A stretch of DNA of 64,000 nt from an uncultured Candidatus Puniceispirillum sp. (GTDB taxonomy: Bacteria > Pseudomonadota > Alphaproteobacteria > Puniceispirillales > Puniceispirillaceae). Under the pieces are notes generated by a model that searched no databases, was not told where the DNA came from, and worked only from the letters and a program-made list of their open reading frames with translations. Both the position numbers and the translations under genes were made by a program. Below are positions 1 to 17,416 of this stretch, piece by piece. Numbering within the stretch: position 1 is the stretch's first letter; each line of letters begins with the position of its first letter. The stretch is from the NCBI GenBank assembly GCA_905182545.1, contig CAJJBY010000002.1:1-64000 (forward strand). The letters run 5' to 3'.

Positions 1-59
1 ACTGTCAAAGCAAATATATTGAAAACAGTGATGAGTATTTTTCATCTCTTTGAATAGAA

Positions 60-1592
60 TCATTTTACTTGATGACGTTGATGTAAATACTGGGACGCGC
101 CTAATCCAGCGATCCTTCCAAAAACTAGACCTGACGTAAGTCCTGAACCACCTGGGTATCCATTATAGAAAACTCCGCCAACGAGTTCACCACAGGCATA
201 CAAACCAAGTATTGGATTTTCATCTTCATCTAAAACAGACCCATTTTCAGATATCTTCAAACCTCCGTAAGTAAAAGTAATCCCTCCCGTAACAGGGTAC
301 GCTCGAAAGGGAGGCTCAGAAATGGTTTGTGCCCAATTAGATTTAGGCAGCGCTAACCCAGAGGTCTTTTTTCCATCTAAAGTTGTTGGATCAAATGGTT
401 TGTTAGAAGAGCAGGCATTGTTAAAATCAATTATCGTTTGTAAAGCCATTTTCTTATCTAAACCATGAGTCTTCTCCATAAGACTGTTTAGCGTTGAAGC
501 TTCAACAAAAGTCGCCTTTTCGAAATGATACTCATCGTATAAAAGTTCAATAACTTTATTATCAAATATTTGCCACGCTTGGCTCTTGGGTTGTTCGATA
601 ACTTTTTTACCAAATTGAGCATAGGTGTAATTTCTAAAATTTTCACCTTCATCAACAAATCGCTTTCCCTCAATATTGATCATTAACCCCAAAAAATAGC
701 ATATCTTCCGATAAAGTTTCCGTTGTATTGGGGGCAAATCCAAGCCCCCCAAAGTCTGGCACGTTTAAGTCCATAGGAGTGGCGTGGCAACCATCATAAA
801 CCCCATATTTTTTTGCTCCCAGGGAAAATGCCATTCTTAGACCATCGCCTGTATTATGGGGAGTACCTCGGACCTTAGCATCGCGCCAGTTCTCGCCAAC
901 AAATTTCGCACGCATTTCCCTACTGGCCTCAAACCCCCCACTGGCGAGGACAACTGCGTCAGCGGCAAAATACTCGTTCCCTACGTAAACGCCATTTACT
1001 TGCCCTTCAGCATATGACAGAGAGGTAACCTCTTTGTCATAGAAGAATCACACCTCCAAGGCTTAAGAAAGCATCTCTTTCTTGCTCAAACAAACCTATT
1101 CCCTCATTTGCAGCTGATAGAGCAAGCCCGCCCCAAAAAACGTGTTTGCCCTCTTTTTGACAAAAGGATTGCCGATTCGTAGATAGGTTCAAATTTTACA
1201 TTATGGCTGGATAGCCATCTGATCGCATCATAGGAATGTCCGAACCAAAACTGTTTGTTCATCACTCAGCGGTTGGCCATTGTTAAAAGACAAAAGATCA
1301 TTTGCAAATTGTGTCTCTGAGTAGCAGCCAAATTCGGTGCGTTCCAGTCTAGAGTCATTTGGATCCATGAAGAAGAGGAATGAGGTCTTCCATCCCATTA
1401 AAACAAAACCTCATCGCGCCTGCCGTGTATTTTGTATTGCCGCCTGAAAGAGTTTCAGAAGCTTTTTCAAGCATCATCACGTCACTGCCATTCTCTAACG
1501 CCGCAATACCAGCTGCACATCGCAGCATTGCCAGAGCCAATTATTAATATCTTATTTTTCAAAGTTAATCCATTACTCACCACCATGGTCAT
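60..1592 (-). pseudogene. broken TcuA-like FAD-dependent dehydrogenase (fumarate reductase flavoprotein family)
   Basis: Pieces in different frames line up end to end with FAD-dependent tricarballylate dehydrogenase (TcuA), an oxidoreductase of the fumarate reductase/succinate dehydrogenase flavoprotein family. The N-terminal piece has an FAD-binding Rossmann start (ILIIGSGNAA) and SGGNTKYTAGAMRF. The middle has VVLASGGFEASREMRAKF and GENWRDAKVRG. The C-terminal piece has INIEGKRFVDEG and ends in YACGELVGG and NGYPGGSGLTSGLVFGRIAG, so both termini of a roughly 500-residue protein are present. Reading is interrupted by a shift near 1530 inside the GxGxxA motif, an in-frame TGA at 1048-1050, further breaks between about 1060 and 1355, and a shift in a T/G homopolymer run at 690-699. 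The region is AT-rich. Substrate is uncertain within the family. More breaks than in any other gene here make real decay plausible, but sequencing error near the contig edge is not excluded. Confidence 0.7.
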
Positions 1593-1661
1593 TAACACAG
1601 GTTAAGCTGTGCAACCGAGTTGGTCCACCTAGCTTATCTGACCTATCTCAGCACCAGGTTT

Positions 1662-2474
1662 TTAACCCACAAAAGCTCTCTCAAGCACAAAGTCGCCAGG
1701 GCTGCTGATCGACCCCTCCTTCATCCCCTTTCCTTTCAGTATGCTGGCCATTTCCTTGTTAAATTCCATAGACCCGCAAACCATTGCTTTATCGGTATCA
1801 TAGGAGAAATCCCCAATGCCAGCATCACGGAAAAAATGCCCTGATGAAATCAGTGCAGTTATTCGACCAGTATTCACAAATTTTTCTCTTGTTAAGGTGG
1901 GAAAGTATTTTAACTTTTTTATATTTAAATCTCTGAGAAGGAGGTCTTTTTTTCGTAATTCTAATATAAGCTCACCAAAAGCCAGATCCCGCTTCATACG
2001 ACAAGTGTGCGTTAGGATAATGTGGTCAAAGTTCTCATAAATCATCGGATCGCGAATAATTGATGCGAACGGTGCTATTCCAGTTCCCGTTGCAAATAGA
2101 AACAATCTTTTGCCACGACGCAATGCGTCGAGTACCAGTGTGCCTGTTGGTTTTCGTTTTAATATTACACGATCACCAGGATTTATTTTTGAGAGAATTG
2201 AGGTAAGCGGACCATCTTTTACGGAAATAGAATAAAACAAAAGAGCATCATCCCAACTAGGGCTTGCTATCGAATACGCTCTTAAGATCAATGTTTCAGT
2301 TGTATCTCGCAAACCGATAAGTACAAATTCCCCAGACTTAAAACGAAAACTCTTGGGTCTTTTAAGCTGAAAAGAGAATAGACTATCAGTCCAGTGGGTT
2401 ATTGAAATTACCTCAACTGTCTCGTCCGATGGATCCAAATTACTTTTTGCCACACTTTTTAAAGAGGTTTTCAT
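1662..2474 (-). CDS. fpr: ferredoxin-NADP+ reductase (Fpr type)
   Basis: A 270-residue FAD flavoenzyme moving electrons between NADPH and ferredoxin or flavodoxin in the cytoplasm. The FAD-binding RAYS motif is at residues 65-68, the NADP-binding GTGIAP at 130-135, VCGSMEF at 232-238, and the chain ends in ERAFVG, close to the C-terminus usual in bacterial Fpr. I chose the ATG at 2474 over an upstream one at 2507 because AGGAAA sits 4 bases before it and because homology begins there. It is divergent from the haem monooxygenase-like gene at 2642, with palindromic sites between them. That arrangement suggests it supplies electrons for iron release from haem (inference). Base composition is AT-rich, unlike the chromosome to the right. 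Confidence 0.9.
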   Translation of the reverse strand: MKTSLKSVAKSNLDPSDETVEVISITHWTDSLFSFQLKRPKSFRFKSGEFVLIGLRDTTETLILRAYSIASPSWDDALLFYSISVKDGPLTSILSKINPGDRVILKRKPTGTLVLDALRRGKRLFLFATGTGIAPFASIIRDPMIYENFDHIILTHTCRMKRDLAFGELILELRKKDLLLRDLNIKKLKYFPTLTREKFVNTGRITALISSGHFFRDAGIGDFSYDTDKAMVCGSMEFNKEMASILKGKGMKEGSISSPGDFVLERAFVG

Positions 2475-2527
2475 AATTTCCTTTCTAAAATAAAAACAAA
2501 ACGTCACAACTGTAACGGCCTTTATTA

Positions 2528-2567
2528 TTAAGAATGATTCTTATATTTATTGCAATTAAGAATGATT
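2528..2567. promoter_or_regulatory. candidate iron-responsive operator (Irr/Fur-like palindrome plus repeat)
   Basis: A perfect 7-1-7 palindrome, TAAGAATGATTCTTA, lies at 2529-2543. The 12-base string TTAAGAATGATT (2528-2539) recurs exactly at 2556-2567, about 28 bases further on. The core AGAA-N3-TTCT matches the core of the alphaproteobacterial Irr/ICE box, though the flanks differ. It sits midway between the divergent fpr and haem-monooxygenase genes, so it could control both. That it binds Irr or Fur is inference. Confidence 0.45.
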
Positions 2568-2641
2568 AACATTTACTTTTTTCAATTAACAAATTATTTT
2601 TCATTTAAAATGATAAATAAATAAAATCAGAGGGAAAATTT

Positions 2642-2923
2642 ATGTTTATCGCGATGAACCGATTTAAGATAGTTCCAGGCCACGAGGAAGCGTTCGAAAA
2701 ATTATGGAGGGAACGCGATACTCACTTGAACGGCGTTTCGGGGTTTAAGACATTTAATCTTGTCAAGGGAGAAGAGAATAATGAGTACACACTATATGCC
2801 TCACATACCGTTTGGAATTCTCGGGAAAGTTTTGAGGATTGGACAAAATCCCCTGCATTTCGCGCGGCTCACAAAAATGCTGGAGAAAACAGTCACCTTT
2901 ACTTAGGACCATCCAAACTTTGA
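2642..2923 (+). CDS. IsdG/HmoA-like haem-degrading monooxygenase (ABM superfamily)
   Basis: A 93-residue protein of the antibiotic-biosynthesis-monooxygenase fold. It opens with MFIAMNRFKI, typical of HmoA/IsdG proteins. The three residues that bind and cleave haem in IsdG appear to be kept: Asn6 (family Asn7), Trp67 in FEDW and His77 in RAAH. Such enzymes open the haem ring to release iron without the canonical haem-oxygenase fold, and they need an electron donor. The divergent fpr is an obvious candidate. The start is the ATG at 2642, preceded by AGAGGGAAAATTT. No haem importer gene is visible here, although the window edge is close. A generic ABM protein with another substrate is the alternative, but the triad favours haem. 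Confidence 0.75.
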   Translation: MFIAMNRFKIVPGHEEAFEKLWRERDTHLNGVSGFKTFNLVKGEENNEYTLYASHTVWNSRESFEDWTKSPAFRAAHKNAGENSHLYLGPSKL

Positions 2924-3009
2924 AGGTTTTGACGTTGTGCTATGATGGAGTTAATCTACACAAGGTTTGTCTGATACAGTATTTAAAGTAAAGCTACAAC
3001 AAAACTACA

Positions 3010-3053
3010 ACAAACACAAAAAAACAGCCCCCAGCCTGGTAAGGACTGAGGGC
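3010..3053 (-). terminator. rho-independent terminator after tRNA-Glu
   Basis: The stem GCCCCCAG (3027-3034) pairs with CTGAGGGC (3046-3053) with one mismatch. On the minus strand it is followed by a run of seven T at 3024-3018. It lies 32 bases beyond the tRNA-Glu 3' end. A shorter T tract on the plus side means it may also end the haem-monooxygenase transcript. Confidence 0.7.
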
Positions 3054-3084
3054 TTGTTTTTGAAGCTATGCTTGGGTTGTAGGC

Positions 3085-3160
<76 letters not shown>

Positions 3161-16165: not shown

Positions 16166-17416
16166 GCCAGACGACGCAAGGTCAGACAAAAAACCGCCCC
16201 TTTTGCCGGTTGATCAGGCCTTGGCCGCCATCTTGGCGCTATTACCGCAAACGATGGCCGTAACAAAGCCGCTTGATCAGGCACTTGGGCTTCACCCTTG
16301 CCGAGGACCTTTTTGCGGTTCTTACCTTGCCACCACAAGCAGTATCGGCGATGGATGGCTATGCGGTTCGGGCTGCCGATGTGAAATCATTCCCCTGTAA
16401 ATTGACCCGCATTGCCGAATCCGCTGCCGGTCACCCTTGGACAGGTAAAATCGTTGCTGGACAGGCGGTTCGTGTTTTTACCGGCGCGGCGATACCTGAT
16501 GGCGCCGATACAATCGTCATTCAAGAAGATGTCGATCCGGTCGCCGAACAGGACAATGTTGAGATTACCGTTCGCAGTGCAGAAATTGCCGGTCGCTATA
16601 TCCGCCCTGCCGGTCTTGATATTACAGCAGGTCAGGTGATTTTACCCGCCGGAACATTATTGTCGGCACGGGCAATTGGATTGGCCATTGCCGCCGGTCT
16701 TACCCATGCATCGGTTCGATTGCGCCCGCGTGTTGGGGTTTTATCGACTGGTGACGAATTGGTTTCCCCCGGCGAATTGCCAGGCCCCGGTCAAATTATC
16801 AGCTCAAACGCCAGCTTTCTTGCCAATTTTGTAAGTGCATGCGGTGCCGAAGCGGTCGATCTTGGCATTGCCCGCGATGTGCCGGGTGCCATGCTTGATG
16901 CAGTGCGGCGTGCCAGCAACCTTGATCTTGTTGTGACCACTGGCGGCGCATCGGTTGGCACGCATGACCATATTGTATCAGATCTCGGAAGCAGTGGGCA
17001 AAATGCGCTTCATTTCTGGAAAATTGCCATGCGCCCGGGAAAACCACTTATTTCGGGTAATGTTGATGGCATCCCACTTATTGGTTTACCTGGCAATCCG
17101 GTATCAACTGCCGTCTGCGCCTTGGTGTTTTTACGGCCAGCCGTTGCCCATATGGCTGGTGGCACCGCATCATCATTACAGTTTTTAATGCCGCTCGCTG
17201 TTGATCTTGGCATCAATGATCAACGCCAAGATTATATTCGCGCACAAATCACCACCAAAGATGGCGTTCAGGTGATTATGCCAGCACCACGGCAAGACAG
17301 TTCAATGATGTCGGTTCTGGCAACGTCGAATGCGCTGATTGTCTCGCCCACCTTTTGACCCTGCCAAAGCTGCAGGTGAATTTGTATCCGTCATTCCTTT
17401 ACCCGATTTAGGCTAA
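16152..17416 (+). CDS. moeA: molybdopterin molybdenumtransferase MoeA (two frameshifts)
   Basis: Inserts molybdate into adenylated molybdopterin. The first frame (from ATG 16152 or 16155) gives the N-terminal stretch up to PLDQALG. The second carries [53 protein letters not shown] and [16 protein letters not shown]. The break is at a GGG near 16287. A second break near 17352 would otherwise cut the tail. Restoring it gives [18 protein letters not shown] and a stop at 17414-17416. The corrected length of about 420 residues fits the family. Confidence 0.9.

Follow-up and report, generated by a model that had tools for sequence, protein, structure and literature searches.

The low-GC end of the window (the whole 64,000-nucleotide stretch analysed, taken from the start of contig C2 in a draft genome of 2.0 Mb, 13 contigs and 98.4% completeness) carries an HmuQ-like gene and, divergent from it, a gene for an extra ferredoxin/flavodoxin--NADP(H) reductase (FPR). 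Together the two genes form an accessory unit, probably gained horizontally, at a tRNA-Glu site that varies among relatives. The reading that best explains it, in which our confidence is about evenly balanced, is a unit for degrading the cell's own haem, present here in a copy that is possibly weakened. In an intact unit, the reductase would pass electrons from NADPH, directly or via ferredoxin, to haem bound by HmuQ; the haem would be held by His77, Trp67 and Asn6, O2 would open the ring, and the iron would be freed. Because no haem importer was found, haem from the cell itself would be the substrate (for turnover or iron sparing). Transcription may be set at a palindrome in the spacer by the Fur-family protein Irr or by Fur. 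The features of this region are:

1 to 3084, no strand: low-GC segment, probably an insert, between the contig end and tRNA-Glu (GC 0.36-0.43 against 0.504)
60 to 915, minus: broken tcuA-like gene (FAD-dependent tricarballylate dehydrogenase), with NF006130 matched on two pieces in different frames and more pieces up to about 1650
1662 to 2474, minus: fpr, ferredoxin/flavodoxin--NADP(H) reductase, 270 aa (Pfam FAD_binding_6 and NAD_binding_1 above cut-off; PDB 2bgi)
2529 to 2543, no strand: perfect 15-bp palindrome TAAGAATGATTCTTA, candidate Irr- or Fur-type operator
2555 to 2567, no strand: 13-bp repeat of sequence from the left side of the palindrome region (other copy at 2527-2539), candidate half-site
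2642 to 2923, plus: hmuQ-like gene, 93 codons, IsdG-type ABM protein with a frameshifted 3' end (NF053649; PF03992; IsdG/IsdI fold match)
2910 to 2945, plus: what is left of the conserved C-terminal tail, in a different frame, HPNFEGFDVVL-stop (frame comparison with relatives)
3085 to 3160, minus: tRNA-Glu(TTC), boundary of the low-GC segment

An earlier note had described fpr and a gene for an ABM protein as divergent across a 167-base spacer, and this layout holds (fpr from 2474 to 1662 on the minus strand, the ABM gene from 2642 to 2923 on the plus strand). The fpr gene starts at ATG 2474, with an in-frame GTG at 2507 as the alternative. Its product belongs with the bacterial FPRs, combining the FAD domain (PF00970, 25.4 bits against a cut-off of 21.1) and the NAD domain (PF00175, 30.6 against 22) with kinship to solved FPRs (PDB 2bgi, E 1.4e-87). 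Against the NCBIfam equivalog PRK10926 for ferredoxin--NADP(+) reductase it scores 122 bits with a cut-off of 390, which makes it kin to that family and not a member. A second FPR, 51% identical to that of the window, is encoded at C2:156426 and could serve housekeeping; in the FPR tree, the window FPR sits on a long branch. Purine-rich, ribosome-site-like sequence was read by eye ahead of both starts, that of fpr and that of hmuQ.

HmuQ is a haem-degrading protein characterised in rhizobia. The 93-residue product of the divergent gene scores 141.5 bits against the HmuQ equivalog NF053649 (curated cut-off 130), with residues 1-92 matched, and is also matched by PF03992. Its Asn6, Trp67 and His77, singled out in the earlier note, do not vary across 33 aligned sequences, the window's among them. 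They match the IsdG triad, given as Asn7/Trp67/His77 in the available excerpt of PMC6018153. The profile search that the note had suggested, together with the IsdG fold match, supports an HmuQ/IsdG-type identity. The AlphaFold model (pLDDT 88.9) is closest to TT1380 of Thermus thermophilus (PDB 1iuj, Z 12.2), followed by Bacillus cereus IsdG (Z 11.8) and the IsdG/IsdI proteins of Staphylococcus aureus (PDB 1xbw, 2zdo, 2zdp; Z 10.2-10.6, 24-27% identity, the same Asn/Trp/His triad). TT1380 (E 5.2e-13) and staphylococcal IsdG/IsdI are likewise the nearest solved relatives by sequence; the TT1380 entry is titled hypothetical protein with no function stated. ABM proteins of other or unknown function score Z 10.2 and below, within 1 Z of the staphylococcal rows, and because of this tie the fold alone does not settle haem chemistry. 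We infer haem as the substrate of the hmuQ product; the HmuQ tree does not resolve the place of the window sequence. Unlike the HmuQ that it resembles in profile score and triad, the window gene has fpr as its neighbour instead of haem-uptake genes, lies in a genome in which no importer was found, and has a frameshifted tail.

Genomic neighbourhoods were compared across 117 relatives, comprising the top 80 out of 545 or more named relatives, the best 30 class loci and 7 family loci. Flanks reach at least 1 kb on both sides in 106 of the 117, and six kb for most of the 80 named loci; the 117 are not independent (L056/L001 and L123/L002 apparently come from the same genomes), and L007 and L008 are incomplete HmuQ copies under the cut-off. 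By best-match lists, and within the available flanks, FPR stands beside hmuQ in none of the 117, so that a single divergent arrangement carries the case for a functional pairing. Among the 29 genomes tested from the best 80 named relatives, 8 have any FPR match and 6 a strong one. All 13 Pelagibacteraceae and all 3 SAR86 genomes tested gave no FPR match (one SAR86 record is a complete chromosome; completeness is otherwise not given). With no FPR in these 16 SAR11/SAR86 genomes and none beside hmuQ in the 117 relatives, the notion of fpr-hmuQ as a conserved unit is not supported. FPR is not a general partner of HmuQ. The 60% FPR piece of G023 was rejected as an orthologue beside HmuQ: by eye, the next frame is enoyl-CoA hydratase-like, and G023 has no HmuQ match.

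A nitroreductase gene lies directly ahead of hmuQ in 19 of the best 80 named loci, all of them Pelagibacteraceae (SAR11). The match to it stops, at the end of the last codon, 6-11 positions ahead of the hmuQ start, and PF00881 is present in the three nitroreductase proteins scanned. Within 700 bp of hmuQ, the same 80 loci also show DUF4149 downstream (31 loci), an alternative oxidase on the other strand (PF01786, 11 loci) and a flavodoxin-fold protein (6 loci), these loci being related, so that the counts are not independent events. The SAR11 adjacency suggests interchangeable reductases and counts for the own-haem reading as a second reductase-HmuQ linkage. Reductase genes as the usual hmuQ neighbours in the wider class were rejected after a neighbour-frame scan of the best 30 class loci: within 700 bp of hmuQ, nitroreductase and alternative oxidase occur in none and a flavodoxin-fold protein in one (L176), and among the 25 families listed, of 51 in 58 neighbour frames, none is of nitroreductase or FPR type.

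The PigA/HemO fold differs from the ABM/IsdG type. Pseudomonas aeruginosa Fpr, an NADPH-dependent ferredoxin reductase as in the window, is named as the donor to the haem oxygenase PigA/HemO in the available excerpt of PMC6018153; its partner there is PigA/HemO, whereas the window partner is an ABM/IsdG-type protein. The proposal in the earlier note that the reductase drives the monooxygenase is loosely supported by this precedent from the same reductase class. The excerpt also gives IruO and the nitroreductase NtrA as likely donors for staphylococcal IsdG/IsdI, and states that for most bacterial enzymes that degrade haem the electron donor is unknown (PMC6018153). The window protein shares the ABM fold and triad with IsdG/IsdI but has FPR as its neighbour and lacks the last strand. 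Electron transfer from FPR to HmuQ, like regulation at the palindrome, is a putative step. The listings and available excerpts on HmuQ, ABM haem degradation, SAR11 and SAR116 show nothing on such an arrangement, although a published account may exist.

The earlier note missed that the 3' end of hmuQ is frameshifted. The gene's own frame stops after PSKL, and the remnant of the conserved tail continues in another frame. Relatives end in a tail such as GHPNFEGFEVVL, kept as P-x-[F/L]-E in each of the 103 relatives whose reading frame is clean (117 were examined, 14 of them without a clean frame by the filter used). In the model of a full-length relative, this tail forms strand 92-97, with a pLDDT of 93 over the last ten residues, and the model of the window protein has the IsdG fold without this final strand. 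The frameshift, with its loss of the last strand, may mean that the copy is weakened or dead; alternatively, it may be an assembly error near the contig end and not real decay.

Base composition and comparison with relatives define the site. GC per 500 bp is 36-43% over positions 1-3000 and 50.4% in the remaining window, with fpr at 0.401 and hmuQ at 0.434 against 0.504. All 9 genus relatives opened at the site keep recJ and tRNA-Glu. One of them (L235) ends at tRNA-Glu; in the 8 that continue beyond it, blastn similarity to the window begins exactly at 3085 in 5 and at 3011-3040 in 3. The DNA beyond tRNA-Glu differs in those 8, with nothing window-like further out by blastn apart from one 41-bp match in L234. 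RecJ is 97-98% identical to the window's in G024, G027 and G030, none of which has an HmuQ match; for FPR, nothing was matched in G024 and G030, and G027 gave a weak match only (E 3e-5, 34%). HmuQ is patchy more widely, with matches in 9 of 61 family genomes (6 over the cut-off) and 44 of 241 class genomes (33 over the cut-off), and 67 plasmid records carry an HmuQ relative. The pair probably arrived by transfer, an event that the trees do not trace: the HmuQ tree gives the window sequence no resolved place, and the FPR is on its long branch. SAR11 as the donor of both genes was rejected: this is unsupported for fpr, which the SAR11 genomes tested lack, and for hmuQ the tree gives no resolved placement.

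Two minor observations were made in passing. The 41-bp match in L234 (G026) is to the 3' part of the tcuA-like pseudogene (window 100-140) and lies near the same tRNA site. In L035 (G042) and L036 (G039), peptide-ABC-like genes (read by eye) lie between two HmuQ-like genes, of which one exceeds the cut-off and the other falls below it.

The pair might also be debris on a decaying insert with no present joint function, an account that we consider possible though doubtful. The tcuA-like gene lies in pieces in several frames, hmuQ is without its conserved tail and final strand, the pair recurs in 0 of the 117 relatives by best-match lists, and both genes are missing from the closest relatives; fpr and hmuQ may lie together by chance, on a segment that carries the broken tcuA as well, a point against the own-haem reading. 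Set against decay, fpr is intact over 270 aa, hmuQ is intact over about 90 of about 100 codons and keeps all residues invariant in the 33 rows, and both starts are preceded by the ribosome-site-like sequence seen by eye.

That the ABM protein is a monooxygenase for a non-haem substrate, with HmuQ a misnomer in the marine branch, is unlikely. It would fit the make-up of the best 80 named relatives, mostly SAR11 contigs, of which 77 are without full hmuTUV in the available flank, and surveys that report, in their available excerpts, no haem uptake or transporters in SAR11 (PMC4771312, PMC5225302); the ABM fold also serves many substrates. Against it stand the invariant Asn/Trp/His triad, the high rank of haem-degrading IsdG-type structures among the fold matches, and the neighbourhoods of the family, which include hmuTUV in 3 of the best 80 named loci and hmuUV in 4 of the best 30 class loci.

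The 98.4%-complete genome gave 0 matches to the TonB Plug domain (3 of 14 control genomes were positive), and its best FecCD permease match, in a zinc-ABC-like gene, reached 17.7 bits against a cut-off of 26.5 (13 of 14 controls were positive); a relative's HmuU as query had no match. HmuQ is thus accompanied by neither a TonB receptor nor a FecCD-type haem permease, an absence that holds for one draft genome and for known families, two of which were searched. The available excerpt of PMC5225302 lists SAR116, the alphaproteobacterial group to which the window very likely belongs, SAR86 and Pelagibacter among groups without haem transporters. A relative in the same genus, G018, nevertheless carries hmuTUV-like genes some 3-6 kb from its own hmuQ, so the lineage does not lack such genes entirely. 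Imported haem is an unlikely substrate in the window genome, and the iron-starvation use of outside haem implied by the earlier note finds no Plug domain and no FecCD above cut-off to serve it.

More tentatively, and with some doubt, HmuQ in streamlined marine bacteria without haem import may be a self-haem recycler with interchangeable flavoprotein reductases, an open-ocean iron-sparing module. The reductase would be a ferredoxin-NADP reductase here and a nitroreductase in SAR11, in neighbourhoods that can also hold an alternative oxidase. Haem-degrading enzymes are mostly read as tools for imported haem; here the genome has no importer that was found, and most of the best 80 named marine relatives are without adjoining hmuTUV. 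If haem is what HmuQ relatives act on, recycling of endogenous haem iron would be at work in abundant bacteria of the ocean. The FPR and nitroreductase linked to hmuQ are concrete candidates for the electron donor.

The spacer (2475-2641, 167 bp, 19.8% GC) contains the perfect 15-bp palindrome reported in the earlier note (TAAGAATGATTCTTA, 7-1-7, core AGAA-TGA-TTCT). The second copy of its left part is also present, at 13 bp and not the 12 bp given before (ATTAAGAATGATT, 2527-2539 and 2555-2567). When the spacer was shuffled 2000 times with its dinucleotides preserved, 10.5% of the shuffles contained a perfect 7-1-7 palindrome, 50% a perfect palindrome with 7-bp arms and any gap of 0-8, and 1.3% a 13-mer direct repeat; the palindrome is therefore weak evidence alone, and the repeat less weak. 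Between the palindrome and the fpr start, the fpr leader also holds a terminator-like hairpin followed by a T-rich stretch (window 2502-2517, minus strand).

Scans of the 2.0-Mb genome and of the relatives do not reveal a regulon. The pattern TNAGAAYNRTTCTNA has one exact site, the window's, and 8 sites with one mismatch, where the reversed control has 22; of these 8, 4 lie inside reading frames, one between irr and katG, and another beside two more TTAATAATGATTATTAA copies ahead of a formate-dehydrogenase-like cluster (read by eye). A looser pattern (17 bp, up to 3 mismatches) gives 24 sites against 36 for the control pattern, and the irr-katG site is the only iron-related one by eye among the 16 of 24 opened. 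Upstream of the 117 hmuQ relatives, the motif occurs at chance level (8 with at least 13/15 against 8.5 in shuffles), and no common palindrome was seen in divergent spacers of SAR11. The same site was thus found neither at several iron genes nor conserved upstream of orthologues; the palindrome was rejected as a conserved operator, and the shared regulon element that the note had proposed to trace through the genome finds no support.

Candidate regulators are present. The genome encodes IrrA (NF045678, 175.4 bits against a cut-off of 150) beside katG, and two other FUR-family members: one best matched by Fur models, the other, behind zinc-ABC-like genes, by the Zur model, both under cut-off. 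The palindrome TAAGAATGATTCTTA is one position per arm off TTAGAAYNRTTCTAA and likewise off TGAGAATNATTCTCA, which we take to be the ICE/Irr box and the Fur-type box; the site between irr and katG is presumably ICE-like. As far as letters can tell, TAAGAATGATTCTTA appears equally close to both box types, which are indistinguishable there, and in contrast to such boxes it has no regulon around it. Irr regulation as the earlier note saw it thus keeps its regulator and the irr-katG site and loses the palindrome as a regulon element. In Rhodobacter sphaeroides, Irr has no major role in iron regulation according to the available excerpt of PMC3413700, which weakens the Irr step.

An iron-starvation unit freeing iron from imported haem and repressed by Irr or Fur at the palindrome, as we take the earlier note to read the pair, is very unlikely: the HmuQ identity, the presence of Irr, the ICE-like site at irr-katG in the same genome and the hmuTUV-like genes near hmuQ in G018, which show that the lineage can carry them, speak for it, but they meet the missing Plug and FecCD matches, the listing of SAR116 cited above and a palindrome unique in the genome and unconserved. 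From that reading, the gene identities and, loosely, the reductase partner stand, while imported haem and the conserved operator lack support.

Two other upstream elements were seen. In L040, at about 17250-17325 (G000:C2:114250-114319), three AT-rich palindromic boxes precede the formate-dehydrogenase-like cluster, two of them identical (TTAATAATGATTATTAA) and 30 bp apart. A shared TGCGACAA element, with no nitroreductase locus among its carriers (0 of 13), starts about 49-51 bases before the conserved Met of hmuQ in 13 of 75 loci scanned (L048, L054, L055, L057, L059, L061, L069, L071, L086, L099, L101, L102 and L107).
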